Origin: Trileptium ribeirensis
Taxonomy: Eukaryota; Nematoda; Enoplea; Enoplida; Thoracostomopsidae
DNA length: 64,000 nucleotides
Direction of reading: 5' to 3'
Assembly: GCA_030248225.1 (NCBI GenBank)
Contig: JASANE010016002.1
Span: 1-64,000, forward strand
Positions 5,095 through 44,169 of this stretch are shown here, in pieces. Below the pieces are notes generated by a model. That model was not told where the DNA came from. It saw nothing but the letters and a program-made list of their open reading frames with translations, and searched no databases. A program made the position numbers and the translations under genes. Each line of letters starts with the position of its first letter. The first letter of the stretch is position 1.

Positions 5095-5209
5095 GATCGT
5101 CAGTTACTTCTGAGGAAGAGGAATGCTATTGTGTACTTTGCATAAATGTTAAAGCTGTTTTAACTAAAATTGAGAAATGCGGAATGATGAAAAGTCAGAT
5201 CGTTTTACT
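5095..5209 (+). repeat. 115-bp leader repeat, copy 2
   Basis: Near-identical to 1-115; here it runs into the 89-bp satellite. The last bases (CAGATCGTTTTACT) resemble the satellite's own TAGATGGTTTTACT, so the array may have grown from the leader's edge. Confidence 0.9.
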
Positions 5210-7242
5210 CATAAGCTGATTTTATAAAACAATGTGTGTAGCTGGAATAAGACGTTCCCTTCGTGGTATACTGTTCCAGAGTGATAGATGGTTTTACTCA
5301 TAAGCTGATTTTATAAAACAATGTGTGTAGCTGGAATAAGACGCTCCCTTCGTGGTATACTGTTCCAGAGTGATAGATGGTTTTACTCATAAGCTGATTT
5401 TATAAAACAATGTGTGTAGCTGGAATAAGATGCTCCCTTCGTGGTATACTGTTCCAGAGTGATAGATGGTTTTACTCATAAGCTGATTTTATAAAACAGT
5501 GTGTGTAGCTGGAATAAGACGCTCCCTTCGTGGTATACTGTTCCAGAGTGATAGATGGTTTTACTCATAAGCTGATTTTATAAAACAATGTGTGTAGCTG
5601 GAATAAGACGCTCCCTTCGTGGTATACTGTTCCAGAGTGATAGATGGTTTTACTCATAAGCTGATTTTATAAAACAATGTGTGTAGCTGGAATAAGACGC
5701 TCCCTTCGTGGTATACTGTTCCAGAGTGATAGATGGTTTTACTCATAAGCTAATTTTATAAAACAATGTGTGTAGCTGGAATAAGACGCTCCCTTCGTGG
5801 TATACTGTTCCAGAGTGATAGATGGTTTTACTCATAAGCTGATTTTATAAAACAATGTGTGTAGCTGGAATAAGGCGCTCCCTTCGTGGTATACTGTTCC
5901 AGAGTGATAGATGGTTTTACTCATAAGCTGATTTTATAAAACAATGTGTGTAGCTGGAATAAGACGCTCCCTTCGTGGTATACTGTTCCAGAGTGATAGA
6001 TGGTTTTACTCATAAGCTGATTTTATAAAACAATGTGTGTAGCTGGAATAAGACGCTCCTTCGTGGTATACTGTTCCAGAGTGATAGATGGTTTTACTCA
6101 TAAGCTGATTTTATAAAACAATGTGTGTAGCTGGAATAAGACGCTCCCTTCGTGGTATACTGTTCCAGAGTGATAGATGGTTTTACTCATAAGCTGATTT
6201 TATAAAACAATGTGTGTAGCTGGAATAAGACGCTCCCTTCGTGGTATACTGTTCCAGAGTGATAGATGGTTTTACTCATAAGCTGATTTTATAAAACAAT
6301 GTGTGTAGCTGGAATAAGACGCTCCCTTCGTGGTATACTGTTCCAGAGTGATAGATGGTTTTACTCATAAGCTGATTTTATAAAACAATGTGTGTAGCTG
6401 CAATAAGACGCTCCCTTCGTGGTATACTGTTCCAGAGTGATAGACGGTTTTACTCATAAGCTGATTTTATAAAACAATGTGTGTAGCTGGAATAAGACGC
6501 TCCTTCGTGGTATACTGTTCCAGATTGATAGATGGTTTTACTCATAAGCTGATTTTATAAAACAATGTGTGTAGCTGGAATAAGACGCTCCCTTCGTGGT
6601 ATACTGTTCCAGAGTGATAGATGGTTTTACTCATAAGCTGATTTTATAAAACAATGTGTGTAGCTGGAATAAGACGCTCCCTTCGTGGTATACTGTTCCA
6701 GAGTGATAGATGGTTTTACTCATAAGCTGATTTTATAAAACAATGTGTGTAGCTGGAATAAGACGCTCCCTTCGTGGTATACTGTTCCAGAGTGATAGAT
6801 GGTTTTACTCATAAGCTGATTTTATAAAACAATGTGTGTAGCTGGAATAAGACGCTCCTTCGTGGTATACTGTTCCAGAGTGATAGATGGTTTTACTCAT
6901 AAGCTGATTTTATAAAACAATGTGTGTAGCTGGAATAAGACGCTCCCTTCGTGGTATACTGTTCCAGAGTGATAGATGGTTTTACTCATAAGCTGATTTT
7001 ATAAAACAATGTGTGTAGCTGGAATAAGGCGCTCCCTTCGTGGTATACTGTTCCAGAGTGATAGATGGTTTTACTCATAAGCTGATTTTATAAAACAATG
7101 TGTGTAGCTGGAATAAGACGCTCCCTTCGTGGTATACTGTTCCAGAGTGATAGATGGTTTTACTCATAAGCTGATTTTATAAAACAATTGTGTAGCTGGA
7201 ATAAGACGCTCCCTTCGTGGCATACTGTTCCACAGTGATATA
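5202..7242. repeat. 89-bp satellite, about 23 highly homogeneous copies
   Basis: Unit: GTTTTACTCATAAGCTGATT, ...GTGTGTAGCTGGAATAAGACG, ...CTTCGTGGTATACTGTTCC, ...AGAGTGATAGATG. Starts at 5202, 5291, 5380 and so on every 89 bp. Most monomers differ at 0-2 positions (one-base C deletions at about 6059, 6503 and 6858), which implies recent amplification or active homogenisation. The last unit has CACAGTGATA in place of CAGAGTGATA. Confidence 0.97.
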
Positions 7243-12890: not shown

Positions 12891-13220
12891 TACATTTATA
12901 TATCATGGCTAGTGGCTTGCATTGAAAATTTACGATACGTAAATGTGTTATATTTTGTTTTTTGCACAACTTTTACAATATGTGTGTTTCATCAGCAAAT
13001 TGTTTGGGTAATTATAGTGATTACATATCTTTGAGGAGTGACAATTTTATCTGGTAAATCCGCTGCTGTATGATTCGGTCGTAGAGTAAATTGTATCTCC
13101 GATTGTCCTCACAGTTTATATTATTCGCAGTGAAAATGTAAATTCTATTGTAGTGACGAATGGATAATATTTTCCGGAGGTCTGCCGGCAGACGAAGGTA
13201 ACCACAGTGTGAGCGTAATT
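12891..13220. other. Intergenic, no gene seen
   Basis: AT-rich; no open frame of note on the + strand and no repeat recognised. Confidence 0.4.
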
Positions 13221-13535
13221 CGCGGAAAGTCGACGACTGTTTTAGAAATGGAAAATACGGTTCTTGCATTCGAAACGCTGTGTGATTCGCCGTATAGCTC
13301 GGGTATGTTTGTGTTTGACATTGTGCTACGTAGTTGACGGCAAACTGCGTTATGTTTGCGAAAATTATCTATGTTTTTGTTCGGAAACTCCACGACTGTT
13401 TTATAAATGGAAAATACGGTTCTTGCATTCGAAACGCTGTGTGCTTCACCGTATAGCTCGGGTATGTTTGTTTTTGACATTTGGCTACGTAGTCGACGGC
13501 AAACTGGGTTATGTATGCGAAAATTTTCCATGTCT
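13221..13535. repeat. 157-bp tandem duplication (two copies)
   Basis: GGAAAATACGGTTCTTGCAT recurs at 13248 and 13405, followed in each copy by TCGAAACGCTGTGTG, GTATAGCTCGGGTATGTTTG and GACGGCAAACTG. About 90% identical. Confidence 0.9.
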
Positions 13536-13839
13536 CGTTGAACACTAATTATAGTAAAATGTTTATACATATCTTCTTTGGGGGTTATTGAAACATTGCG
13601 AACAAAACATTTTGGAATTACACTTCTAATTGCGGTTAACCGTACAAATTTTTTATGTGGACATGATCCCTCAGGGCCGAATGGATGGCCATCCGATAAT
13701 CTTTTTATTATTATTATTTATTATATAATTATTATATTTTTATATTTATTTTTAATATTTAATTTTTTTTGCGTATTGAACAAGTCGTTTTGCCTGGCCA
13801 AAAATATCGAGTGACTTCATCGTTTGCTTTTTGATAAGA
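13536..13839. other. Intergenic, very AT-rich
   Basis: Includes a TTATTATTATTTATTATATAA tract around 13700-13765; no gene seen. Confidence 0.5.
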
Positions 13840-19533: not shown

Positions 19534-20754
19534 TAGCTGAGCTGTTTGCTGTAGTGAATAGGCTATTTAATTGTGTTTGCAAAGCACTACGATGAAGTCA
19601 AGTTAGCCGATAAAGCTTCTTGTAAAGCAGGCTTGCATCAAGATGTTAATGATAGAATACCTGTCTACCAGCGGTTTCAATTCCTGATTGTAAAATTTAG
19701 AAGTGGCCGATTGTCGGTGGCAGCGAAGGAGACGGGTGCTGTAGCTATCAGGAACTGATCATTACGGGGTATGATTGTTTATCGTCTCTATTGAATGTGG
19801 ATTGAAACAGGGTTTTTATTGCGGAAGGAAGTATTTTTAAACTATTTCATTTTGGAATTTACGTATTGTTGCTAAGTAAAACCGTGCACAGTTCTGTAAC
19901 AGTTGGTTCGAATTGTGACCCCAAAAACTTTAAAGTTGAATTTGATGTTAGTGGTGAGAAGTTGGGCTCGAAGCGAGATCGCTTCATCTTTCCTAAGCCG
20001 AGCCTAAGCATTTCACCCTGAGCCGACCCAGCCGAGTTGAACTTCGTGAAAGCAACTCGTATACAGCACGATGTATATTTGGGGGTTTTTTACCAGTACA
20101 CCAACCGCAATGACGAACACTGCTACTGCGGAAAAACCAAGTCTATGCATCCATCGTAAAGGTATCGATGACCACAGAAAACTTAACTTGTTTCAATAAA
20201 TCCCTTGCATTTTGGCACAAAGTGAATCTCTATTTTTCTGAAAACAGCTTAACACTGGTTTCTGTGTATTCATATGCCGTGCGAGGGTAAAAGTACTATG
20301 AACGTACCCGAAGCGATAGAAAGCGATTTTCAAAAACAAAAGATATCAGTATTATTGTTACTTGTTTCATGTTTAGCGCAGACGCACTGTTGCATTGCAT
20401 AGGCAGAAATTTTTGGTATTTTACGCTTCCTGGATAACAACAGGCAGACTCGAAACTTCGTCCGAGTTAGCGTTGTAGCGGCAGACGCATGTACCATGGC
20501 GCTGTATGCTGTCGCTGCTCTAATTTTGCAGGGAACGCCACACCATAAGGCAGTGATATCGCAGCGTGGTGAAGGCTCAGGTTCTCTGTGCTCATTACTT
20601 GACAAAGTAACGGAGGTTGATAGTGTCGCACAGGTTGCACCAATCTATGGATCTTGTCCTACCAGCTGCACCGATTTGTAGATTTCTCATTCCAGCTACA
20701 ACTACTTGTAGAACGTGCTGTGACGATTGTACCAATAGCCGGTTCTGTTTTGGC
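19534..20754. other. Tomosyn intron, no exon recognised
   Basis: Open frames up to ~90 codons without motifs. 19960-20040 is rich in GCCGAGCC/GCCGACCC words. Confidence 0.4.
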
Positions 20755-21297
20755 TGAAGAGCACGACACTCTTCAGCTTATATGCATTTTTAGTTTATAG
20801 GGATGTAGCGATGCGTTTCGCGCTGCCCCCTGTATTTCATGAGGAGGACAGTTCGTCGTCTCGTGATAAGGGTGAACCATTTTACCTATATATTTAAAAC
20901 TAATCTGTCTTACGACGGTCTAATCCCAGATCACCTTCCATATATTGGTGGGTCAATTTTCCAATGCTTAGTGAATTCTGCTTCACAATGATAGGAACAA
21001 GGGATCAAAAAGCAACGTGCGTCAAAGAGCAACTTCGGCAAGCTTCCTCGCTCGCCTGTATTGCGAGGGCGAATTAATCCCCCTGTTGTTATAGGTCGGG
21101 CAATTTGTCCCTCCTTGATTTCGTCGGGGTGGGGACACCCCGTGGAAATCGGGGGGGGGGGGGACAAAATTCCCCCCTCGAAATACGTGGGGGGAGATGA
21201 ACTGCTCCCCCATGAAATACAGGGGGACAGCGCGATTCGCTCCGCGATATGGTTTAGACTACATAATGCTTAAGCTGAAGAGCGTCATACTCTTCAG
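20755..21297. mobile_element. Hairpin-flanked TIR element
   Basis: A hairpin CTGAAGAG...CTCTTCAG lies at each side (about 20755-20777 and 21274-21297). Between them, GCGTTTCGCGCTGCCCCCTG, TATTTCATGAGG (about 20814-20847) is mirrored by CCCCATGAAATACAGGGGGA, CAGCGCGATTCGC (about 21208-21240). The centre has long G and C runs. Non-coding; family unknown. Confidence 0.7.
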
Positions 21298-22079
21298 GGA
21301 AGTATCAGCCACTCTTGGTTGTAGCAATTTGTAGATAGTCGTATAACTGTATCAGCCATCATCGAGTAGCTGTTATTCCAACATCAGAAATTTGGCTCCC
21401 TGGAGTACTACAGCTTCCAAAGTGGAGGTAGTCGATGGTAGGTAGTGAATAATTATTGTCAATCCTGCGTTAGACTGGTACTGTGCTGCATTTCTTTACT
21501 GTGCATTTGGCACCATTATACATTAAGTAAAGCTAAGACCGTTGAGGTAATTGTTATGTACCTTAATTCTATTATAACAAACACTACTTAAATTTGACAT
21601 CGCTCTGTACTGGTTCACACAAAAAACCGGAATTTTGAGTGGAGTCTTAGCTTTGGTGGTGTATAACATGGACGTAGTCTGGTTTTTGTGTTCCAGAGCA
21701 TTATCGAGTCTAACTCAGTTGCACTAAAACATTGATCAGGTACATATGTTTATGATATCGGCCTCGACGTATCGCGGTCATTAACTCAGCAAACCTGAAG
21801 ATTGTCATGCTTCAGTGAATCTAATATTATAGCTCTTTGGATGCAATTATCTGCCTTTGTTATGCAACCGTAACATTTGCCGTAAGCCTTAGTGTTGCTC
21901 ACCATTTTGTAGGTTTGGTTCCCCTTGATTTAATCTTTTCTTGCAACATCAAATTCCTCAAAGAGCGAACTTCAGCTTTCTCGTACATAGGAAGGGGTGG
22001 ACTATTTTTCGGCTTTGCCTTCATCTATTTTATGTCTATTATCCTCGCTATTTTGCGCTGCCCTTGCAAAAAATGAGCG
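21298..22079. other. Tomosyn intron, no exon recognised
   Basis: Contains a 79-codon hydrophobic + frame (21837-22076; two candidate membrane segments, GRGGLFFGFAFIYF) that I cannot tie to a family or to splice sites. Confidence 0.35.
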
Positions 22080-22505
22080 CGCGCTCCCTCGGTTGGGGCA
22101 CCTGGCAAAATTTTGCCCCCCCCGCAAATTTTTTGGCATCAACCGTAAAAAAATTTCCAGATGACACAAAAATTAACAAATTTTTTACAAAAATCTCTTT
22201 ACGAAGTTATAAATTGAACTCAAAAATTTGAACATAAAATCACACCCATTGACAATTTCAGCAAAAAAATGGGTTGAAAAGCGTCTTTAACATCGATATA
22301 GATGTTTTTTGCACTGTTTATGACCTATTTATTAACAATTTTAGCGTTTTTCACTGAAAACTATTAAATTTTGAAAAATTTTCAATTTCGACCTCCAGTT
22401 TAAGCTAGGGGTCTCCAGTTCAAGCCCCTGGCAAAATTTTTCGCCTCTAGCTCCGAACCAGGCCCCCACTGGTTCATGCCCCGTGGCAATATTTTCGGCG
22501 AATAC
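22080..22505. mobile_element. TIR-element relic, family G (GGCAAAATTTT type)
   Basis: CACCTGGCAAAATTTTGCCC near the start and CCCCTGGCAAAATTTTTCGCC, CGTGGCAATATTTTCGGCGA near the end, the same blocks as in the elements at 35579, 39424 and 46711. Edges are approximate. Confidence 0.55.
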
Positions 22506-22884
22506 AGAAGCCAGAACTTGATGATCACTTGTGTTAGATTACATCCATACATCCATGTTAGGAAGCTCCAATATTCATCCTCAGCCTTTTCGAGTCAAGT
22601 TGGGGCAAACTGGAAATCTTCGAATGTATCGAACCGAACCGACTTCCTATTAAATTAGCCCCAGCCGACGCAGGTGAAATTGGAGTCTAGCCCAGCCTGA
22701 AAAATTTGGTTCATTCTCACATCTGTGCACATGACGTGTATTTCCCCAGCTGAAATTGAACACCAAATTGTTCTGCGTTTTGCTAACCTAGTTTTTTTAA
22801 TGCAAACAGTACACGAATATTACGCCTAATCGAATGTCAACGTTCTGGATTACAGACACGAACCAAAGAGATTTAGTTAAATAG
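22506..22884. other. Tomosyn intron, nothing seen
   Basis: AT-rich; no exon or repeat recognised. Confidence 0.4.
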
Positions 22885-23190
22885 CTGGCCTGTTCACAGC
22901 CCTCCGAAAAGTGGAGAGAACTTGAGGGGACATGTTCATTATCGTGAAAAATTTCAAAGTGAAAGGGTAAATTTTGCTCAAAAATGCTTAATATTTCTGT
23001 ATTTTCGTATAGTGTTACTGTCGTGCTAATATTTTCAAGCTACAAAGCGACGTTTTAGCATTTGAAATTGTGGTAATGAATGTTTTAAAAAACTTTTTGC
23101 TTACAAAAAACAAATTTGGAGACATAAAAAATTTGGACTTAGTTGAACATGGGTACTCCGGCCGACTTGGGGGTGGATAGGGGATGCACT
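22885..23190 (+). mobile_element. TIR element family F, 3' end eroded
   Basis: Starts CTGGCCTGTTCACAGCCCTC, CGAAAAGTGG as in 26614-26984; continues GAACATGGGTACTCCGGCCGA and fades near 23190. Confidence 0.75.
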
Positions 23191-23772
23191 TATTTTATCA
23201 GTGCCTTTGCTTTCCTATGCTATTAAAAATGAGCTAGAGAAAGTCACTGGATGAGGTCTGGTGGATAGTGGATAGCACTGTCGAGCTCTGTACCAAATAC
23301 GTCTGCGACCGCAGGCCGGACGCTCTATGCTTTTCAAGTTTTGTACACTTTTGGACAGTACTTTGTTTAACAGTATAGCAGTGGTAACGTCAGAGGAATT
23401 CCGTAGGTATTTTGAGATCGCTCAGTGAGAAAGTTTGAATTACAGCTAACTCTTTGGGTCTACGTACTGTTTTTTTGCTATTCGATCATCCTATCCTGTT
23501 TTGCTCATATGACTTTTGGATATCCGTGTTTATATATCACGCCTGAAAGAATTTTTTCAATGGTTGTTAGCACGAATTATTGTGATTACCACGGTTCATC
23601 AGAATAATAATTGTACGCCGTACTGGAATGCGGCCTAGTACGGGTGCTAATGGTTTATGCTATGACGGCACAAATTTGATCACCGGATTATCTTGACTGT
23701 GTTTCAGCTAGATTCAGAAGGTTGTGTTTACTGAATCTCCACTGTGAGTCTTAGCTCGCTGACTCTCCTCTT
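23191..23772. other. Tomosyn intron, nothing seen
   Basis: AT-rich; one 60-codon frame (23425) without motif. Confidence 0.4.
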
Positions 23773-24115
23773 CTGGCCTGCCCACTTTCCAAATCCCCAT
23801 GTTCGTGAAATTTCCCCCATGTCCGTCCCCCCACTCGGCCGAAATTTCCATGTTCAACTAATTCCAAATTTTTTTGTCTGAAAATTTATGTTTTTTGTTT
23901 GCAAATTGTTCAAAATATCGTTTTTAGCTTGAAAATACATTCATGGTAGTAAAAATGCATGAAAATATGGAAATATTTAGTATTTTTAAGAAAACCACCT
24001 CCCTTTTAATTTAATTTATCCACCCCCCTTTTAATTTTCCCCCGAGAATGAACATGGGGACCGTCGAAGTCCCTCCCACTTTTCGGAGGGCTGTGGACAG
24101 GCCAGCTCTTGCTGA
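23773..24115 (-). mobile_element. TIR element family F, inverted copy
   Basis: Reads CTGGCCTGCCCACTTTCCAA ... CTTTTCGGAGGGCTGTGGAC, AGGCCAG, the reverse complement of the family. Internal landmarks: CCCCATGTTCGTGAAATTTC and GAGAATGAACATGGGGACCG. About 340 bp, non-coding. Confidence 0.85.
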
Positions 24116-24122
24116 CATTGTT

Positions 24123-24227
24123 CAGTCCTTTAAGTGTAGATGAAATAGCGATTGGATATTTCGGTCGATTTGAAATCGTTCGAAGTGTCGATCGACTATT
24201 TTGCGCTCTGGCTTTCGGCCTTGACTG
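24123..24227. mobile_element. Short degenerate Tc1-like MITE (~105 bp)
   Basis: CAGTCCTTTAAGTGTAGATG at the left and TTTCGGCCTTGACTG at the right; interior TCGATTTGAAATCGTTCGAA. It ends about 100 bp upstream of the exon at 24332. Confidence 0.6.
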
Positions 24228-24331
24228 TTTAGGGTTCCGCTGCTGACATTTTGTATCACCGTATCATTTATAATCAAGTGAAGCTGCTATAGTTATGTTG
24301 TTTTTCGGTACAATTAACTTAATAATTTCAG

Positions 24332-24498
24332 CCACATGGATGGGTCAGTTAAATTTTGGGATGCGACCGGGGCAACACTAACCGTTTTGTACAAATTGAA
24401 AACTACCAAATTTTTTGAACGCTCGTCGATTACTCGTGGACATAGTAGCAGTGACGACAAGCCGTCTGCTGGATCAAAACAAAGTTCCACGAGCATAG
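24332..24498 (+). CDS. STXBP5: Tomosyn exon, WD40 blade (GHMDGSVKFWDATG, LYKLKTTKFFE)
   Basis: Acceptor AATTTCAG ends at 24331 and donor GTATGC begins at 24499. The first C finishes a Gly codon, giving G-H-M-D-G-S-V-K-F-W-D, a classic WD40 strand that matches the tomosyn GHADGSVKFWDAS block. LYKLKTTKFFERS follows, matching the family's YKLKTSKVFE. The last third (GHSSSDDKPSAGSKQSST) is Ser-rich and diverged, as expected for the loop that varies between tomosyn isoforms. The exon ends in phase 1. Between this exon and the one ending at 17566 the family's EWPI...PEIIITG segment is absent, so one exon of phase 0 to 2 must lie in 17567-24331, or has been lost. Codon use is AT-rich like the surroundings. 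Confidence 0.93.
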
Positions 24499-24710
24499 GT
24501 ATGCCTGGCTATGTCCAATTATTGTGTAGATGCAGTTGCGGGCCGAAATAAAATCCACTCTTTCCCGTATTATATTATTCACGAATAGTTGGACAAAAAT
24601 AACGTCAAACAGTTCGATGAAAATTTTGTGCGAACTATTTGTTTTTATTTCTGTCCGTTGTCTGCTGTTGTACTGCATGTATTTATTATGATATATTTTG
24701 ATATAATGAA

Positions 24711-24868
24711 GTACGAGTCAAAATGACTCTCGCTTGCTCGAGACTCGCTGGAAATAAATTTGTTCTAAAATAGAATTTACTATTATTATTTTAATTAGTT
24801 TCTAAATCTCAAGAGATCGACTCGCTCTCTCAAAATGCGACAACAATTTCTGGCACCTACAGTAGTAT
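24711..24868. mobile_element. Tc1-like MITE, family A
   Basis: GTACGAGTCAAAATGACTCT, CTCGCTTGCTCGAGACTCGC, core TTTGTTCTAAAATAGAATTT, right CAACAATTTCTGGCACCTAC. Ends eroded. Confidence 0.75.
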
Positions 24869-25066
24869 TTACTTTATTGTTTTTCGACTCCGTGGACTAA
24901 CATTTGTGCGCTATTAGCCAAAAGTATTTTGGTTGGCGTGATGGATATTCGTAGCCTTTAAGTAGACCGATACGACGGGCAGAGTTTTGCTCAATCTGTG
25001 AGTTTTGTTGGATTTCTGAATTGCCCTGTTCATGGTGCATAGGTATGTAAGTACATATGCATAATA

Positions 25067-25180
25067 CAGTACGCACAAAAATGACCGTCGGATTTCGAGC
25101 GAACGAATTCGAAACTATTTTAAAGTACTAATAAATTATATTTTTAGAACAAAATTATTTCGAGCGAGTTGCGAGCCAGC
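25067..25180. mobile_element. Tc1-like MITE, family A, cut by another element
   Basis: CAGTACGCACAAAAATGACC, GTCGGATTTCGAGCGA, then GAACAAAATTATTTCGAGCG before breaking into the G-run element at 25181. TA precedes it. Confidence 0.75.
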
Positions 25181-26206
25181 TTCAGGCAGATCCTTAGGCC
25201 TTGTAAAAATTGGCACCCGATATGTGTTAAGTCGGGGGGGGAAGGCGTGAAACTTTAACTACTTCTAGAGATTCTAGATTTGGTTTTACGGCTTTATAAG
25301 ATTCGGCGAACATCTTAGCTCGTTTGGTAAGCGTTTCGACTTTACATACCAAGGACAATGCGCGCAATAGATGTGCGGGCAGGCATAAGGGTTCCCAAGC
25401 TGCCCAGTTAATTATCATGTTGCAATCATGATGAACTTATATAATTAATAATGGTTCTTGTGACCTTCGGTTTCGTTTATTATACCTGCGGTCGGGGGTG
25501 GGGCTACATGTTCATTAAAAAATTTTAATACATGGGTCGATTCTAGTGGGGCGTTATTATGTTTCTATTCGCCTAATGTAACACTGTATTCAAAATTTGG
25601 CTTTTTTAAACTTAATTTTCGTACGTGTGGGGTAATCTACATTTTTCATGCCCCATTTTTGGCACTTTATGACCTCAACCTCATAATCAAACAACACATG
25701 GACAGACGCTGACATATTTTTTCAATAACACCTGTACTGATTATGATTATCGTTATATAGCATTTTTGGCGCTAGAGCACTTTGACGTTATTTAGCAGCG
25801 CATGCAAGCTGCCAGATTTGACCTAGGTCGGGGGCTACATGTGACGAAAAAACTTTCGGAAGCTTAACGTCAGCTTCACAGTATATGATTACTATCAAGT
25901 TTTTGCGGAAAAATTAGCAATACCAAAGGATCACAGTGAGATGAATAACACACATATGTATCACGTGCTAGCGATACGGCGAACATTTATAGTGGGACAT
26001 GCGTTTTTGGCTTTATTTGGTCAATCCGGTTTGTGGGCCTCTAGCTCCTGCTATGTTGTGGGTCCACCATACCTCATGATGACCGTCTTACAGCCTATTA
26101 CTACACCTCACAGCGACATTAAATTCCCTTCCAAAAGACTGGTGGTACGGGCCAAAAAGTGGCGATATAGCCCCCAACGAAATTACATGGTTTCGTGAAA
26201 TGACCC
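25181..26206 (+). mobile_element. G-run TIR element, 5'-truncated copy
   Basis: Colinear with about 29379-30444 (shared GGCAGATCCTTAGGCCTTGT, ATAGATGTGCGGGCAGGC, AAATTAGCAA, AAAAGACTGGTGGTA). Ends ATTACATGGTTTCGTGAAATGACCC. The first ~460 bp are missing. Several GGTCGGGGG(n)CTACAT motifs are present. Confidence 0.9.
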
Positions 26207-26238
26207 TTATATATTTAATTTATTTTGGTAGAGGAATA

Positions 26239-26446
26239 CACTACTCGCCAAAAATGACCGTCGCATTTCGAGCGAGTTGCGAGCGAGCGACAGTCATTTT
26301 TGGCGGGTACCAGTACTCGCCAAAAATGACTGTCGCTCGCTCGCGACTCGCTCGACATTCACTCGAGACTCGCTCGCGACTCGCTCGAAATAAATTTTTG
26401 TTCTAAAAATAGAATTTTGTTCTATAGTCATTTGTGGCTGATACTG
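26239..26446. mobile_element. Two abutting Tc1-like MITEs, family A
   Basis: A very short palindromic copy (26239-26310: CACTACTCGCCAAAAATGAC ... GTCATTTTTGGCGGGTAC) directly followed by a second (26311: CAGTACTCGCCAAAAATGAC) that ends ATACTG at 26446 before TA and lacks most of its right half. Confidence 0.8.
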
Positions 26447-26613
26447 TATGTGTTTCAACTGATTTCTCTCTAATAGGAACTACATTATTAATATGAAGAC
26501 ATTCGGATTCGAGAATAATTATAACCAGATATTGTCTAAATCATAACCTTTTATCGTCATTTACATTGACATCGCTGGAGCTACACTCAATTTTCTGAAA
26601 CATACGCATAATA

Positions 26614-26984
26614 CTGGCCTCTCCACAGTCCTCCGAAAAGTGGGGGGAGGGAACTTCGGGGGTCCCCCATGTTCATTCTCGGGGGAAAATTAAAAGTGGG
26701 GGGGATAAATTTTGCTTAAAAATACTAAATTCCTTATTTTCGTGCATTTTTACAACCGTGAATGTATTTTCAAGCTAAAAACGACATTTTAGCATTATAG
26801 ATAGTGGTAATTAATGTTTAAAAAACAATACAAACAAAAACATAAATTTTTAGACATAAAAATTTTTGGAATTAGTTGAACATGGGGGTTTTGGCCGAGT
26901 GGGGGGGCGGACATGGGGAGAAATCTCACGAACATGGGGGATTTGGAAAGTGGGTGTCCCCAACCCCCACTGTGGACAGACCAG
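26614..26984 (+). mobile_element. TIR element family F, complete copy
   Basis: CTGGCCTCTCCACAGTCCTC at the left and CCCACTGTGGACAGACCAG at the right. TAATA flanks both ends (26609-26613, 26985-26989), a possible 5-bp target duplication. Interior: CATGTTCATTCTCGGGGG and its partner CTCACGAACATGGGGG. Non-coding, 371 bp. Confidence 0.85.
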
Positions 26985-27038
26985 TAATATACTAAGGATA
27001 GGTGACAAATTATGGAAAATGTGTCGACGGGCGTGACT

Positions 27039-27900
27039 TAACCGCTATTTTTATTTTATTTTAGACGATGATCGTTTTTATTTTATTTGATACGATGATT
27101 GTTTTTATTTGATTTTAGACAATGGTCATTTTTATTTTATTTGAGATGATGACCATATTTATTTGATATCAGACGATGACCATTTTGATTTTATTTGATA
27201 CGATGATAGTTTTTATATGATTTTAGACGATAATAATTTTTATTTGATTTCAGACGATGATCATTTTTATTTTATTTTAGCCGATGATCGTTATTATTTG
27301 ATTTTAGACGATGATCATTTTTATTTTGTTTGAGACGATGATCATTTTTATTTAGTTTTAGACGATGATCAATTTAATTTTATTCAGGCGATGATCGTTT
27401 TTATTTGATTTTAGACGATGATCATTTTTATTTTGTATGAGACGATAATCATTTTTATTTGATTTTAGACGATGATCATTTTCATTTTATTTTAAACGAT
27501 GATCGTTTTTATTTTATTTTAGACGATGACCATTATGTTGTTTGAGACAATCATTACTTTTATTTAATTTTAGAGGATGATCATTTTTATTTTATTTGAA
27601 ACGATGATCGTTTTTATTTGATTTTAGACGATGATGATTTTTATTTGATTTCAGACTGTGATAATTTTTATTTGATTTTAGACGATGATCGTTATTATTT
27701 GATTTTAGACGATCATCATTTTTATTTTGTTTGAGCGATGATCATTTTTATTTTAGACAATGATCATTTCAATTTTATTTTAGGCGATGATCGTTTTTAT
27801 TTGATTCTAGACGATGATCATTTTTATTTTATTTGAGACGATGATCATTTTTATTTTATTTGAGCCGATGATCATTTTTATTTTATTTTAGACGATGATG
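27039..27900 (+). repeat. ~27-bp minisatellite of 3' splice sites abutting a tomosyn exon
   Basis: About 32 units of the form TTTTTATTTTATTTTAG then ACGATGATCA, alternating loosely with TTTGAGACG variants. The last unit's TTTTAG at 27886-27891 is the acceptor of the exon at 27892, whose first bases are ACGATGATGA. Roughly half the units carry TTAG, CTAG or TCAG in the right place to act as acceptors. Confidence 0.95.
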
Positions 27901-28022
27901 AACTGTTCGGCGTGCAACGAATCGAATTTTGTGCTGAGTCGCGTCTCGTGGCAATGTCGGGTGCAGCTGGTCATGTTCTGTTGTGCCGCTTTTCGAAGAT
28001 TGAAACCAGCGATAGCATATCG
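27892..28022 (+). CDS. STXBP5: Tomosyn exon, WD40 blade (VQRIEFCAESRLVAMSG)
   Basis: Acceptor ATTTTAG ends at 27891, donor GTACTA begins at 28023, length 131 nt (phase 1 to 0). With the G carried from 24498 it reads D-D-D-E-L-F-G-V-Q-R-I, then CAESRLVAMSGAAGHVLLCRFSK. Tomosyns have DP.AIQ..SWCPESR, a G-x-S/A-AHV hydrophobic strand and YRFSK at this position, so the fold strand order is conserved. The acceptor region is remarkable: the T-rich tract plus TTTTAG plus ACGATGAT is the last unit of a ~32-copy minisatellite occupying the preceding 0.85 kb. Only the last copy keeps the frame; any upstream copy tested runs into TGA within about nine codons. Both phases fit the neighbours. Confidence 0.9.
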
Positions 28023-28139
28023 GTACTAGTTACAAATTTTTTTAAAACTACTGTTTCTTGATAGTATTATTAGTGACGGAATGTATTAATGAAGTAACCT
28101 TTTAGGGTATATTATCTCCGCCTGCTTGGGAGCTGGGGT

Positions 28140-28790
28140 GAAATAACACTATGTTTTAGGCTAAATTTTGACAATTTTTGGTGTTATCGTTTGTATAGTG
28201 TATGTAAGTAATGCACCAGTAAACTTAACTTGCGCCCATCGACTATCCTATTTTATAATAGCCGATAGCGAATCGCAAACTTCTGTTGCGAAACAAATGC
28301 GAAAATTTCATCAGTTTTCGATAACAGAAAGTAGGCGAAATAAGAAACAAGCACCAAAAATTACACCTTGTGTTCTAACAGATTTTGACGATTTTGAATT
28401 TGCAGTGAAAATTGTTATCTAATGCCTTTCAGCTTTTTATTTGTATTTGTCACTGTTCGTTAACAAATTTAACGTAATAGTGACGTCACAAATTAATCGG
28501 TCCCTTGGTTTAGCTTGCAGTGTTCGCGAACAAAGCCAGCGAATCCAAATCCGATAGATTTTCGTTCGCAAAAAATCGGTAATTTTCATTGAATTTTCCA
28601 CACAAATAAACCGGATTACTATCGCAGAGCTGTGTGTTCGCGAACAGTTTTGCGCCGGATTAGGGTTTATCAGAAAACGTTCGGTAACAGAATTTTAACC
28701 GAAATAGCAAAATAATATTGTTGATAGGCGTGGGTTAAGTTTACTGTCGCATAAACCGATTTAGCCTAAATTTTCACTGTAGATTATGAC
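28140..28790. mobile_element. Foldback element, ~0.65 kb
   Basis: TTTTAGGCTAAATTTTGACA at 28154 is mirrored by GATTTAGCCTAAATTTTCAC at 28769, and further in AGTAAACTTAACTTGCGCC (28216) is mirrored by GGCGTGGGTTAAGTTTACTG (28727). The interior has CGTTCGCAAAAAATCGG-type words. An 84-codon frame inside is not convincing. Confidence 0.7.
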
Positions 28791-28815
28791 CTTAGTTGGC
28801 TTACATTTGGAATCA

Positions 28816-30540
28816 CAGTACCAGCCAAAAATGACTGTCGCTCGATCGCGACTCGCTTGACACTCGCTCGCGACTCGCTCGAAATAAATTTTTTCTAAAA
28901 ACACTATTTACTATTAGGGTCATTTCACAAAACCATGTACTTTTGAAACACCACTTTTTGAAGCCAAAATGAAACGTTTTCCAATGTACAGTGTCTAGTC
29001 CCCTTACGATGTTAAAACCCTGAATTTTTCGAATATCGATGTCTCTATGCAAAACGAGCTACCTGCTACAGGGGTTGGAAAGGGCCTCCCTGTGGGTCAA
29101 ATTTTAATCCGAATTAAGTCATTATTCTGTAGGTTGACGGAGTGACACGCGAACCATAGTCTGTTTTTTATGCTAGTCGGACCAAAATGGTCCTCGTCAA
29201 GCCATTTGGAGCACTTGCGACCTATTGATGCTGTTAGGGCATTGTTGGGGTAAAAAATCGACCAATTTAGAACAAGCCTGTCGCAGAAGTTTTTCTAGCG
29301 CAACGGAGACAGCACCTACAGATACCATATTATGCTCACAAACCAACCATGAGCGGAGGACATCCGAGAAAAAATTTCAGGCAGATCCTTAGGCCTTGTA
29401 AAAATTGGCACCCCGGTAGGTGTTGAGTCGGGGGGGGTACACCTCAGGTCGGGGGGGGGGCTAGAGCTTCCTACAACATGCAACGCGCCAAACTTTAGCT
29501 ACTTCTATACATTCTAGATGAAAGCTGGTGTAAAACAAATACAATTGATCCATGACTAGCTTACATTTAAGTGCTTATACCGGGGACAATGCGTGTAATA
29601 GATGTGCGGGCAGGCAGAAGGGTTCCCTAGCTGCCCAGTTAACAGCACGGCCCCATATCATAGTGCAGTGATGATGAACTTATACACTAATATGATTCTT
29701 GCGACCTTCGATTACTTTTATTATACATGTGGTCGGGGGGGGCTACATTTTCATTAAAAATTTTTAATAGATGGGTCGATTCTAGTGGGGCTTTACTATG
29801 TTTATATCCGGCCTATTGTAAGACTGTATGCTAAATTTGGCTTTTTTAAATTTAAGTTTGGTCAGGTCGGGGGGGGGGCTACATTTTGCATACCCCATTT
29901 TTGGCATTTTATGACCTTCGACCTCATAATGAAATAACACATGGACACACGCTGATATTCTTTTTTCAGTGACACCTGTACTGATTACGATTACCGTTAT
30001 ATAGCATTTTTGGCGCTAGTGCACTTTGACGTTATTTACCAGCGTCTGAAAGCTGCCAGATTTGACCTTGGTCGGGGGGTCTGCATGTCACGAAAAAAAT
30101 TTTCGGAAGCTTGACGTCAGCTTCAGTGTCGATGCTTACTCCCAAGTTTTTCCGGAAAAATTAGCAAATACCAATGGATCACAGTGAAGTGAAAAACACA
30201 CATATGTATCACCGATACGACGAACGTTTATATTGGGACATGTGTTTTTGGCTTCATTTGGCCAACTCGGGTTGAGGGCCTCTGGCTCCTCCTATGTTTG
30301 GGGTACAGAGGTCCACCATGCCGCATTATGATCGTCGGACATGCTATTACTACACCTCACAGCGACATTAAATTTCCTTCGAAAAGACTGGTGGTATGGG
30401 CCAAAAAGTGCCGACTAAAATGACATGGTTTCGTGAAATGATCCATTAATTAAAATTGTTTCGAAATCTCGAGCTTGCCACTCGCTCGCGGCTCGCTCGA
30501 GACTCACACGAAATGCGACGGTCATTTCTGGCCAGTACTG
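28816..30540. mobile_element. Tc1-like MITE, family A, split by a nested insertion
   Basis: Left half 28816-28916 (CAGTACCAGCCAAAAATGAC ... TTTACTATTA), right half 30445-30540 (ATTAATTAAAATTG ... GTCATTTCTGGCCAGTACTG) followed by TA. Removing the insert and one ATTA restores the family's core. Confidence 0.9.
28917..30444 (+). mobile_element. G-run TIR element, complete 1,528-bp copy
   Basis: Left GGGTCATTTCACAAAACC and right GGTTTCGTGAAATGATCC are 18-of-22-type imperfect TIRs (extended with ATGT/ACAT). ATTA is present on both sides (28913-28916, 30445-30448), a 4-bp target duplication. No long ORF; internal GGTCGGGGGGG runs recur five times. Non-autonomous; superfamily not assignable. Confidence 0.88.
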
Positions 30541-31030
30541 TAATGTCACTGATAAACGCTTATACAAGGAAAGAAACCTGGGAGCTTAAAATATCAGTGT
30601 CAAATCTAAGCAAAATTTGTTGCGTCTTTTCGGGTATAGCACCGAGTCGCAACTGATCGTAGTATATGCATAGTTTTATATACCATTGGAACCGCATAAA
30701 CGAGTTATGTCGAATTGCATCAAAACTAACCTAATAAGGAGTTTGCCCGTGTTAGTGAATATCTAAGCCTTAGGTCACGCCGTTAACTCATGAATCCTAC
30801 AAATTTTGGCACAGTCCTAGTCAGCTTCATAATGCGATTCGAATGGTATCTAACATTCAGTAGACAATTTTCGACGCCAAGAATAACCATAAAAATCCTA
30901 AAATATTTTGCCATATATGGCTGTAATGGAGTGTTTTTAAATAAGTCTCACCTGTCTAATAACTCTACTGGGCGTGGAGCAAAATTTACGACTTTTTTTC
31001 GTAATGATAATTTTCGGGCTGGAGGTGTAT
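30541..31030. other. Tomosyn intron, nothing seen
   Basis: AT-rich; short frames only. Confidence 0.4.
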
Positions 31031-31039
31031 AAATAAACT

Positions 31040-31232
31040 ACAACAGTTTTTAGTGTTACAACATGTTAAACCATGATCGGATTTGGCACATGTTCACACG
31101 GGGAGAGTAATATGCCTTATAGGGGAAAGACCTCGCGGAGGAATATCAATCGACACCGGAGCCAGGGATCGAATCTAGAGTTGAACGGGTGAACGTGACG
31201 CAAGCAAGCCACTGAGCTATTTAGGAATTGTT
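31040..31232 (-). repeat. tRNA-derived SINE-like sequence
   Basis: On the minus strand a perfect RNA polymerase III A box TAGCTCAGTGG (31219-31209) is followed 33 nt later by a B box GATTCGATCCC (31175-31165), the spacing of a tRNA. No acceptor stem can be paired around them, and a non-tRNA body (CTCCGCGAGGTCTTTCCCC, GGCATATTACTCTCCCCGTG) follows, as in SINEs. The 3' end is uncertain. Confidence 0.6.
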
Positions 31233-31489
31233 GCAGGGTTCCTTTAGGAATCTCGCAAAGTCAGTGAATAACAACGAACGTGCAGACATTATGCGACAAC
31301 TCGGTTAACACAACAGTTCACTGTGTGAACGTTACCTGTTTATGGACAGTGAGCGTTAATGGGTTAAAGTAATTTATATAAGCAAAATTAAATTAATGCT
31401 ACAAACCCTACGGTCTCAGCGCACGATCTAGTATCGAGATAATGAGTAAAAATATTACTTTGGTTTATCTTATACTTTAATATCTTTAG

Positions 31490-31708
31490 AGCGTCTATTG
31501 TCCAATTGAGTCGTGCTTTTGCGAAGAAGGGAGTGTTGTGGGAAGCGCCAGCAGTACTAAAAATGTCGCAAGCTGTGGCGGTGCGGCAAGCGGTGCTTCG
31601 TCGTTTGATTCTGCAGCCGGTGCCGGGACTAGTTCTTCGAAACAATGCCCACTACAACGACAAACATCCATCGGAAGCAATGATAGCATTGTTGATGCTA
31701 AGTATCGA
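31490..31708 (+). CDS. STXBP5: Tomosyn exon, Ser/Gly-rich loop
   Basis: Acceptor ATCTTTAG ends at 31489 and donor GTAAGC begins at 31709. It has 73 whole codons, phase 0 to 0, no stop. The product starts SVYCPIESCFCEEGSVVG, continues as a Ser/Ala/Gly-rich stretch (SASS, AASGASSFDSAAGAGTSSS) and ends LQRQTSIGSNDSIVDAKYR. Between the blade on the previous exon and the GYQ.EL block on the next, tomosyns carry a poorly conserved, Ser-rich segment, so composition and place fit although sequence similarity is not informative. Phases match the exons on both sides exactly (28022 ends phase 0, 34045 starts phase 0), and this is the main support. RQTS is a possible basophilic-kinase site (inference). 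The exon is GC-richer than its flanks. Confidence 0.8.
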
Positions 31709-31871
31709 GTAAGCTAAGCTTGAGTTTTTACAAGGTTATAACGTTGTATATAAACGTAGTTATCTTAAGTGTTTTCGCTGGTTTTAAGATTAATATCGTG
31801 GAAAAGTACAGTCGTGGACAAAATTAACTGCAGCACAGGCCCTCGTAGTCGAGGGCACATGCGCTCAAATA

Positions 31872-33834
31872 CAGTACTCGTGACGACAAGTCACCGTTGC
31901 TTCAATGTTCGCTCGCTCCTCGCTCAATGTTCGCTCGCTCCTCGCTCAATGTTCGTTCGCTCCTCGCTCAATGTTCGTTCGCTCCTCGCTCAATGTTCGT
32001 TCGCTCCTCGCTCAATGTTCGTTCGCTCCTCGCTCAATGTTCGTTCGCTCCTCGCTCGATGTTCGCTGCTCGCTCGATGTTCGCTCGCTGCTTGCTCGTT
32101 GCGCTCTCGATGTTCGCTCGCTCCTCGCTCAATGTTCGCTCGCTCGATGTTCGCTCGCTACTCGCTCAATGTTCGCTCGCTACTCGCTCAATGTTCGCTC
32201 GCTACTCGCTCAATATTCGATCGCTGCTTGCTCAATGTGCGCTCGATGTTCGCTCGCTGCGCGCTTGATGTTCGCTCGCTGCGCGCTCGATGTTCGCTCG
32301 CTGCGCGCTTGATGTTCGCTCGCTGCGCGCTCGATGTTCGCTCGCTGCGCGCTCGATGTTCGCTCGCTGCGCGCTCGATGTTCGCTCGCTGCGCGCTCGA
32401 TGTTCGCTCGCTGCGCGCTCGATGTTCGCTCGCTGCGCGCTCGATGTTCGCTCGCTGCGCGCTCGATGTTCGCTCGCTGCGCGCTCGATGTTCGCTCGCT
32501 GCGCGCTCAATGTTCGCTCGCTGCGCGCTCGATGTTCGCTCGCTGCGCGCTCAATGTTCGCTCGCTGCGCGCTCGATGTTCGCTCGCTGCGCGCTCGATG
32601 TTCGCTCGCTGCGCGCTCGATGTTCGCTCGCTGCGCGCTCGATGTTGGGTCGTTGCGCGCTCGATGTTCGCTCGTTGCGCGCTCGATGTTCGCTCGTTGC
32701 GCGCTCGATGTTCGCTCGTTGCGCGCTCGATGTTCGCTCGTTGTGCGCTCGATGTTCGCTCGTTGTGCGCTCGATGTTCGCTCGTTGTGCGCTCGATGTT
32801 CGCTCGTTGTGCGCTCGATGTTCGCTCGTTGTGCGCTCGATGTTCGCTCGTTGCGCGCTCGATTCTCGCTCGATGTTCGCTCCCTAGATGTTCGCTCCCT
32901 GGATGTTCGCTCGATGTTCGCTCCCTGGATGTTCGCTCGTTGCTCGCTCGATGTTCGCTCGTTGCTCGCTCGATGTTCGCTCGATGTTCGCTCGTTGCGC
33001 GCTCGATGTTCGCTCGTTGCGCGCTCGATGTTCGCTCGTTGCGCGCTCGATGTTCGCTCGTTGCGCGCTCGATGTTCGCTCGTTGCGCGCTCGATGTTCG
33101 CTCGTTGCGCGCTCGATGTTCGCTCGTTGCGCGCTCGATGTTCGCTCGCTGATCGGTCGTTGCTCGCTCGATGTTCGCGCCCTAGATGTTCGCTCCCTGG
33201 ATGTTCGCTCCCAGGATGTTCGCTCCCTGGATGTTCGCTCCCAGGATGTTCGCTCCCTGGATGTTCGCTCGATGTTTGCTCGTTGCTCGCTCGATGTTCG
33301 CTCGATGTTTGCTCGTTGTTCGCTCGATGCTCGCTCGATGTTCGCTCGTTGCTCGCTCGATGTTCGCTCGTTGCTCGCTCGATGTTCGCTCGTTGCTCGC
33401 TCGATGTTCGCTCGTTGCTCGCTCGATGTTCGCTCATTGCTCGCTCGATGATCGCTCGTTGCTCGCTCGATGTTCGCTCGTTGCTCGCTCGATGTTCGCT
33501 CGTTGCTCGCTCCATGTTCGCTCGATATTCGCTCGCTGCTCGGTCGTTGCGAGCTCGATGTTCGCTCGATGTTCGCTCGCTGCTCGCTCGCTGCTCGCTC
33601 GATGTTCGCTTTATGTGCGCTTGCTGCTTGCTCGATGTTCGCTCGCTGCTTGTTCGATGTGCGCTCGATCTTCGCTTGCTGCTTGAAACGATGCATGACA
33701 CTGCGCACTCGCTGCTCGAAACGTTTTATAACAATGCTCACTCGATATTAGCTCGATACTCGTTCGCTGTTCGAAACGTTTTATACCACTGTTCGCTTGC
33801 TCGAAAGGCAACGGTTATTTCTGTGCGCGTATTG
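31872..33834. mobile_element. Giant Tc1-like MITE with a 22-bp satellite interior
   Basis: Left CAGTACTCGTGACGACAAGT, right GGCAACGGTTATTTCTGTGC, GCGTATTG, with TA on both sides (31870-31871, 33835-33836). The interior (31905-33780) holds roughly 75-80 copies of a 22-bp unit combining TGTTCGCTCGC and TGCGCGCTCGA, with block-wise variants (CTCCTCGCTCA, GTTGCGCGC, GTTGTGCGC, CCCTGGATGTTCG). Because the unit lacks stops in any frame, ORFs of 372, 547 and 489 codons appear on both strands; these are artefacts. It lies in the tomosyn intron 31709-34044. Confidence 0.9.
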
Positions 33835-34044
33835 TATGTACTTTTTTGCACAAACGCACAAATTGTGCGTAAAAAAGGTAAATATTATTTTATTAAACGC
33901 TTTAGTTTGTGGATGTCACGGTTTTGTCTATGACTGTATTTGCAGTGTCAATTTGTTGATATTTTTTGTCTTGTGGGTTTGTTCCATTTTTTTAACCTGA
34001 GCCTCAGCCGAGTTTAATATTGTGAATCTTTTGTCCTGTTTTAG

Positions 34045-34193
34045 AGCCATCATTTGTATCCGGTGAAAGCCAAAAGCGGGTCTCACAAAAAGCTTGCCGG
34101 TTATCAAGCTGAGCTTGCTTGCTTCTTGCCATGGTTGAACAAAGACATGCCCGATGCTGTCAGTTCGCTTATGCTGAACAGCACATACGGCTT
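34045..34193 (+). CDS. STXBP5: Tomosyn exon, second propeller start (AGYQAEL, LPWLN, LNSTYGL)
   Basis: Acceptor CTGTTTTAG ends at 34044 and donor GTAAGA begins at 34194; length 149 nt, phase 0 to 2. The product reads SHHLYPVKAKSG, then KLAGYQAELACFLPWLNKD and SSLMLNSTYGL. Vertebrate tomosyns have P-GYQ-EL--QL-WV-GE-P--ITSLAVNSSYGL here, so the GYQ.EL, W, and LNSTYGL elements are clearly conserved. This is the first strand pair of the second beta-propeller. The last two bases TT begin the final Leu codon, completed by A from the next exon at 38257. The exon follows the 2-kb GC-rich satellite of the preceding intron by only about 210 bp. A small perfect hairpin lies 50 bp downstream of the donor. 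Confidence 0.93.
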
Positions 34194-43587: not shown

Positions 43588-44169
43588 CGCTTCAAGTACC
43601 CCAGCTCCACCCTCTCGGCCGACGGCGACCTGCGACACGAAGTCAACTCACGAGTCAACGCTGCCTGGATGCAGTGGCCGTCGACTACCGGCGTCCTCTG
43701 TGACAAGAAGATCAAGGACAAACTCAAGTCCAAAATTTAGCGTTCCGTTGTTCGCCCCGTCGCCCTCTACGGCTCCTATTGCTGGCCCACAACCAAGGAC
43801 ACAGAACGCCGCCTCGCCGTCATGGAATCCTAGATGCTGCGATGGACCTGCGGCGTCACTCGCTTCGACCACGTCCGCAACGACGACATCCGCGGCCGCT
43901 ACGGCGTTGCACCAATCGTCGACAAGATGCGCGAGCAGCGACTCGGCTGGTACGGACATGTCCTGCGCGCCGACGACAACTCGCTCGCTAAGACCGGTCT
44001 CCATCTCGAGATTACCGGCAAACGCCCGAAGGGTCGCCCGAAACAACGCTGGTCCGACACGCTTCACGCTGACATGAAGATACCCAAAGCCCACCCGAAC
44101 GACGCCTAGAACCGCTCAAACTGGAAAAAGAAGACCCAAATGGCCGACCCTGCATCGAAGCGGGAATAG
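43588..44169 (+). pseudogene. RTE-type non-LTR retrotransposon, C-terminal fragment, decayed
   Basis: One frame reads through the end of a LINE reverse transcriptase and its C-terminal domain: STLSADGDLRHEVNSRVNAA, KLKSKI, RPVALYG, MLRWTCGVTR, VAPIVDKMREQRLGWYGHVL, RPKGRPKQRW, ADMKIPKAHPN and a final NRSNWKKKTQMADPASKRE. These blocks are characteristic of RTE-clade LINEs, especially copies widespread in nematodes (established knowledge). In-frame stops at 43738, 43831 and 44107 show it is dead; another TAG at 44167 is probably the natural stop. It is 5'-truncated, as usual for LINEs, and ends in a short GAAGAAGAAGAA run like RTE tails. It is much GC-richer than its surroundings, which suggests fairly recent arrival. 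It sits in a tomosyn intron in sense orientation. Confidence 0.88.

Follow-up and report, generated by a model that had tools for sequence, protein, structure and literature searches.

Immediately ahead of one of its predicted exons, the gene for the synaptic regulator tomosyn in the 64-kb window (the whole stretch of DNA analysed, 64,000 nucleotides) carries a minisatellite whose 27-bp unit reproduces the 3' splice site of that very exon about 32 times, and we consider that this array is probably a mirage-type minisatellite with decoy acceptors that splicing would tolerate. A previous sequence-only reading had offered three roles for it—a splicing buffer, a means of tuning the tomosyn output through nonsense decay, or a purely structural expansion tolerated by splicing—of which options the last fits best with the results described below.

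The exon adjoining the array matches tomosyn/STXBP5, with the matches to LLGL1/2 being weaker. By tblastn, two fish tomosyns gave collinear matches along the + strand; the same places were hit by 127 homologues of more than 880 residues, 70–127 of which were represented at each exon. Among the matches listed in the protein searches, one listing of which contained the best 120 of 1572, there was no close homologue, the top identity being 61% (over 17% of the query); and in a 28-row tree the protein of the window grouped weakly with those of the nematodes (support 83/43). Three pieces, together with the three + strand frames of 20000–29992, gave no match above the cut-off when scanned against Pfam. 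The resulting eight-exon tomosyn model (13155–38347) has all of its seven junctions in phase and reads 325 residues without a stop, donors and acceptors having been set by hand under the guidance of GT/AG and homology, which procedure makes the agreement in phase weaker than an independent test. The fish protein is longer in the interval 28022–34045, from which the model may lack exons; where the eighth exon ends is provisional. The features surrounding the array are the following (the slash marking the predicted exon–intron junction):

24332–24498, + strand: tomosyn exon upstream of the array, donor G/GTATGCC, phase 1
24499–27891, + strand: intron carrying the array, 3393 bp, delimited by predicted junctions
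27047–27891, + strand: 27-bp minisatellite of about 32 copies, each with a T-tract, a triplet (YAG, GAG, or none) and a copy of the exon head; the array terminates with the authentic acceptor
27047–27064, + strand: first (partial) copy, 18 intronic bases that with the next 8 bases equal the authentic site from -18 to +8
27890–27891, + strand: AG of the predicted authentic acceptor, phase 1, completing GAC with the G of the upstream exon
27892–28022, + strand: tomosyn exon DDELFGVQRIEFCAESRLVAMSGAAGHVLLCRFSKIETSDSIS, from whose head ACGATGAT the repeat putatively derives; the 3' boundary, with the donor GTACTAG, is less certain

The predicted junction 24498/27892 joins G/GTATGCC to TTTTAG/AC and yields GAC GAT GAT GAA, and TTTTAG is an ordinary acceptor in the tomosyn gene, since the seven other modelled acceptors comprise five TAGs and two CAGs. 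The 3' end of the exon, for its part, is less sure because its donor, GTACTAG at 28023, is weak and an alternative GT at 28029 also keeps phase 0.

That some 32 tandem copies of the exon's own acceptor run directly into the acceptor of the exon at 27892, as had been claimed before any search was made, was borne out by two procedures. TRF returned a single array at 27047–27899 (period 27, 32.0 copies, 79% matches, score 1034), while a wrap-around alignment resolved a partial first copy (from 27048) and 31 complete units, of which 28 measure exactly 27 bp and the other three 26, 24, and 21 bp; the last unit leads into ACGATGATGA, the ten bases with which the tomosyn exon opens. The array occupies the last quarter of the intron. 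Its unit consensus, ACGATGATCATTTTTATTTTATTTTAG, joins a copied exon head to a T-rich tract and TAG, so that each unit combines 18 intronic with 8–9 exonic bases, the ninth exonic base, a G in the gene, being C in 25 of the 31 units. Elsewhere in the 64-kb window, on both strands, the best ungapped match to that consensus extended to only 18/27 positions, and a dispersed-repeat origin was rejected upon there being no further copy within the window. A coding use of the array was likewise rejected, stops not being avoided in the units. A donor-like GTATGAG is located within the array at 27435; paired with an AG upstream of it, this motif could delimit a microexon some 20 nt long.

The copied exonic part encodes acidic residues, and the conservation of those codons in homologues indicates that the array was derived from the exon. 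With 161 of the 170 homologues retained, and in rows that include many isoforms from single species, D/E is found at the second residue in 82 of the 110 rows without a gap there and at the third in 105 of 112; LLGL1/2, moreover, have DD at the copied position. The first residue, encoded by the split codon, may speak against the exon as the source, being D/E in only 39 of 82 ungapped rows (all 170 homologues) despite the good conservation of the third. Taken as a whole, the conservation points to an array that arose from the edge of the exon: a 27-bp segment consisting of the last 18 intronic and approximately the first nine exonic bases would have been tandemly duplicated, expanded, and diversified.

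The history of the array seems to have included a later step in which a block duplication of about 400 bp roughly doubled its length. Units 15 apart share an identity of 0.881, a value not reached in any of 3000 shuffles; the mean identity of units at lags 1–10 ranges from 0.81 to 0.85; and the two halves of the array align at 0.886 over 395 positions. These two results—the identity at lag 15 and the alignment of the halves—imply that the array about doubled and then diverged, so that an old block duplication appears to have shaped it. Of the 20 lags considered, lag 4 (0.005 of the shuffles) stood out along with lag 15, the alignment having been made for lag 15 only. Higher-order dimers were tried as a further model and rejected, adjacent units being no more similar than shuffled ones (lags 1–3). 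The array thus looks old, unlike the very uniform array of 89 bp × 23 at 5197–7240 (98% matches), and the arrays of the window range from such uniform examples to old ones. The differences among the units also bear on the supposition that the length or copy number is an artefact of the assembly: tandem arrays are often mis-sized in assemblies, yet here the units differ from one another to the extent just given, and neither stutter nor collapse would create an old block duplication, in view of which evidence we assign that explanation a very slight probability.

The stretch 27040–27894 contains 31 AGs, 23 of them YAGs (the authentic site included). The 32 unit ends consist of 21 YAGs (again with the authentic one), seven GAGs, and four triplets without an AG; the earlier estimate that about half of the units keep a YAG was therefore too low. 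The YAGs of the array are mostly spaced by 27 or 54 nt, and upstream from the authentic acceptor the closest AG is 27 nt and the closest YAG 81 nt away. Between -15 and +6, two upstream sites (the AGs at 27064 and 27522) differ from the authentic one at no base. The second of these, and one further upstream AG of relevance to the reading frame, are as follows:

27521–27522, + strand: AG of a decoy TAG, identical in sequence to the authentic site from -15 to +6
27863–27864, + strand: AG of a GAG, the one upstream AG from which the frame stays open as far as the exon; its use would add nine residues

The sequence-only reading had held that only the last acceptor keeps the frame and that the others meet TGA in about nine codons, the former of which claims is wrong. 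A unit of 27 bp leaves 17 of the 30 upstream AGs (12 of the 22 upstream YAGs) at a distance from the exon divisible by three, hence in frame with it; the other 13 are out of frame. When joined in silico to the upstream exon, however, 29 of the 30 reach a stop after 1–35 codons, so that the anticipated premature termination was upheld and these 29 sites share with poison splice sites linked to nonsense-mediated decay (NMD) the feature that their use would introduce a premature stop. All 29 first stops are indeed TGA, but exactly eight codons were read in only nine of the 29 instances; at 24 of the 29 AGs the first TGA is due not to a lost frame but to a G in unit column 25 (TTTTAG to TTTGAG), with the other five arising elsewhere in the unit.

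Such an abundance of stops would be expected if the array were a poison-acceptor regulator, diverting a set share of the pre-mRNA into transcripts that end in TGA and are sensitive to NMD, with the copy number acting as a dial for the tomosyn output. The 22 upstream YAGs, including the two sites indistinguishable from the authentic one between -15 and +6, and the near-universal early TGA are in line with that proposal, but the variation among the units is not. The rates of non-modal bases were 0 at A26 and 0.13 at G27, values encompassed by those of the other columns, which span 0 to 0.45. A TGA in the exon frame is created by G25, present in 10 of 31 units, and not by G20, which is about as frequent (12 of 31). 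In the column variation of the 31 units, then, no excess constraint on the AG or on the stops was found. G20 and G25 never occur together (0 of 31 units; Fisher P 0.004), a mutual exclusion that is best read as a reflection of unit lineages because the units are not independent. Since, in addition, the available parts of the literature on mirages suggest that they leave regular splicing undisturbed, we regard a poison-acceptor regulator as rather unlikely, and the array as most likely tolerated and not selected. A splicing rheostat, in which more than 20 near-identical acceptors compete, most of them reaching TGA, and the copy number sets the share of productive tomosyn mRNA, strikes us as distinctly improbable; were it real, differences between individuals in the length of the minisatellite would adjust their neurotransmitter release.

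The GAG at 27864 could, for its part, provide an alternative isoform with nine additional residues. It alone among the upstream AGs is open into the exon, and homologues vary in length immediately before that point; but GAG is generally a poor acceptor and is used at none of the seven other modelled acceptors of the gene, considerations that leave such an isoform very unlikely.

If, as we favour, the array is a tolerated expansion, most of its copies would be small acceptor modules, of which the normal mRNA would probably use the exon-proximal AG. The identity of two upstream sites with the authentic one from -15 to +6 means that the choice among the acceptors must depend on position or context. 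That choice might be made through a branch point inside the last unit, through definition across the downstream exon, or through both; and the occasional use of an upstream YAG would give rise to transcripts with an early TGA, which products we would expect to be removed by NMD. In mammals, as stated in the portion of the source available, the first AG downstream of the branch point is preferred; if that preference is valid here, the productive branch point would have to lie in or near the last unit. Two considerations weigh against a tolerated array: the 22 upstream YAGs should entail some cost unless the choice of the branch point protects the last site, and the weak GTACTAG donor of the exon looks to be of no help to exon definition.

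A different means of protecting the last site would be a self-masking RNA, wherein ATGATCAT, a perfect palindrome in the unit consensus that is present in many units, would fold the upstream acceptors away while leaving the last one free. The folding of the array plus its exon surpassed that of all 20 shuffles (z -5.65), although good folding is to be expected of any repeat that bears a palindrome. The accessibility of the authentic site, at 0.082 against a decoy mean of 0.060 (0.223 against 0.113 in a shorter folding window), likewise favours masking, but that site ranked only fourth of 21 for the 12 nt in both folding windows, and ninth and third of 21 for the last 3 nt. In local folds, furthermore, seven of the 20 decoy YAGs had an equal or weaker hairpin and 14 of the 20 an AG at least as open. 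The accessibility of the authentic site is accordingly not exceptional among the 21 sites, self-masking was not supported, and we hold it to be extremely improbable.

With respect to known systems, NAGNAG and other tandem acceptors are competing 3' splice sites, usually two in number and a few nucleotides apart; the tomosyn acceptors would resemble them in that competition but exceed 20 and lie about 27 nt apart. A closer parallel is found in the mirages, tandem repeats across exon–intron boundaries that the available parts of PMC3087553 and PMC3902484 describe in amphioxus (Adh3, the globins BflGb6 and BflGb9, troponin C, and PGBD5). According to the accessible text of PMC3087553, the Adh3 mirage units measure 10–72 bp, a range that includes the 27 bp of the tomosyn unit; the splice signals are retained in many repeats, though not in all; and BflGb6 has an acceptor-side array with 6 or 3 copies of 150–160 bp, whose units are 81–100% identical. 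The tomosyn array is comparable in that its unit spans an exon–intron boundary, in that it abuts the predicted acceptor at 27891 of a real gene (all seven hand-placed junctions being in phase), in that many but not all of its units carry splice signals, and, as with BflGb6, in its position on the acceptor side; it differs from BflGb6 in having about 32 copies of a much shorter unit. The anatomy deduced from the sequence is consequently that of a mirage minisatellite, though the mirages are backed by RT-PCR whereas the tomosyn array is known from DNA sequence alone. In the same available parts of PMC3087553 and PMC3902484, the mirage data suggest that regular splicing is unaffected, while the authors of the globin paper (PMC3087553, as far as accessible) allow that mirage repeats might still serve as cryptic sites. 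This kind of array, of which the sequence-only reading knew no case so long, is already described, the acceptor-side example with 3 or 6 copies among them, and the tomosyn array is a long and probably tolerated representative; in the literature searched, a partial coverage mostly without subscription journals, we recognised no acceptor array as long as about 32 copies.

Two other settings offer looser analogies. Human segmental duplications contain internal tandem repeats, some of them at exon–intron boundaries, with units averaging about 30 bp and about four copies on average (PMC2812944, in the part available); they are similar to the tomosyn array as minisatellites of such unit length that alter the exon–intron structure, but, in that part of the source, lengthen exons or form introns, whereas the tomosyn array constitutes a row of copied acceptors. 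Models of intron gain by tandem duplication, as cited in the accessible parts of PMC3087553 and PMC2809761, likewise involve a duplication that copies splice signals, yet the tomosyn array lies inside an existing intron and no new intron was seen.

The tomosyn gene contains a second duplication across an exon boundary:

13223–13540, + strand: tandem duplication of 159 bp × 2, covering the 3' end and the donor of exon 13155–13302

The second copy of that duplication keeps GGGTATGTTTG but has an in-frame TAA, and if the second donor were used, reading through would meet a TGA first. Together the two arrays suggest that minisatellites spanning exon boundaries, known from amphioxus and human segmental duplications in the available parts of the cited papers, extend to a further animal, where a single gene has one at a donor and one at an acceptor.

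We see the chief value of the array in the natural experiment that it provides on the choice of 3' splice sites. The choice of an acceptor is usually studied with few competing AGs, whereas here 23 YAGs within one gene, with two upstream twins of the authentic site among them, constitute a natural test, in which counts of the junctions along the array would separate scanning from the branch point, exon-proximal choice, and random choice.

Minisatellites are abundant in the window, where 13 arrays selected from the TRF output amount to 23.7% of the 64 kb, for which reason an array spanning a boundary is in itself unsurprising. An enrichment of arrays at splice sites was considered and rejected, two of the 15 modelled boundaries being in arrays, which is no excess over the 13.0% of the modelled gene span that arrays cover. 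Between the exon that adjoins the acceptor array and the next modelled exon there is a CTCG-rich array (31905–33683; periods 22, 44, and 66) in which several frames of either strand stay open, for up to 554 aa, probably as a result of the composition of the repeat. Finally, an open reading frame is present at 43834–44109, which seems to resemble the C-terminal part of a LINE-type reverse transcriptase.
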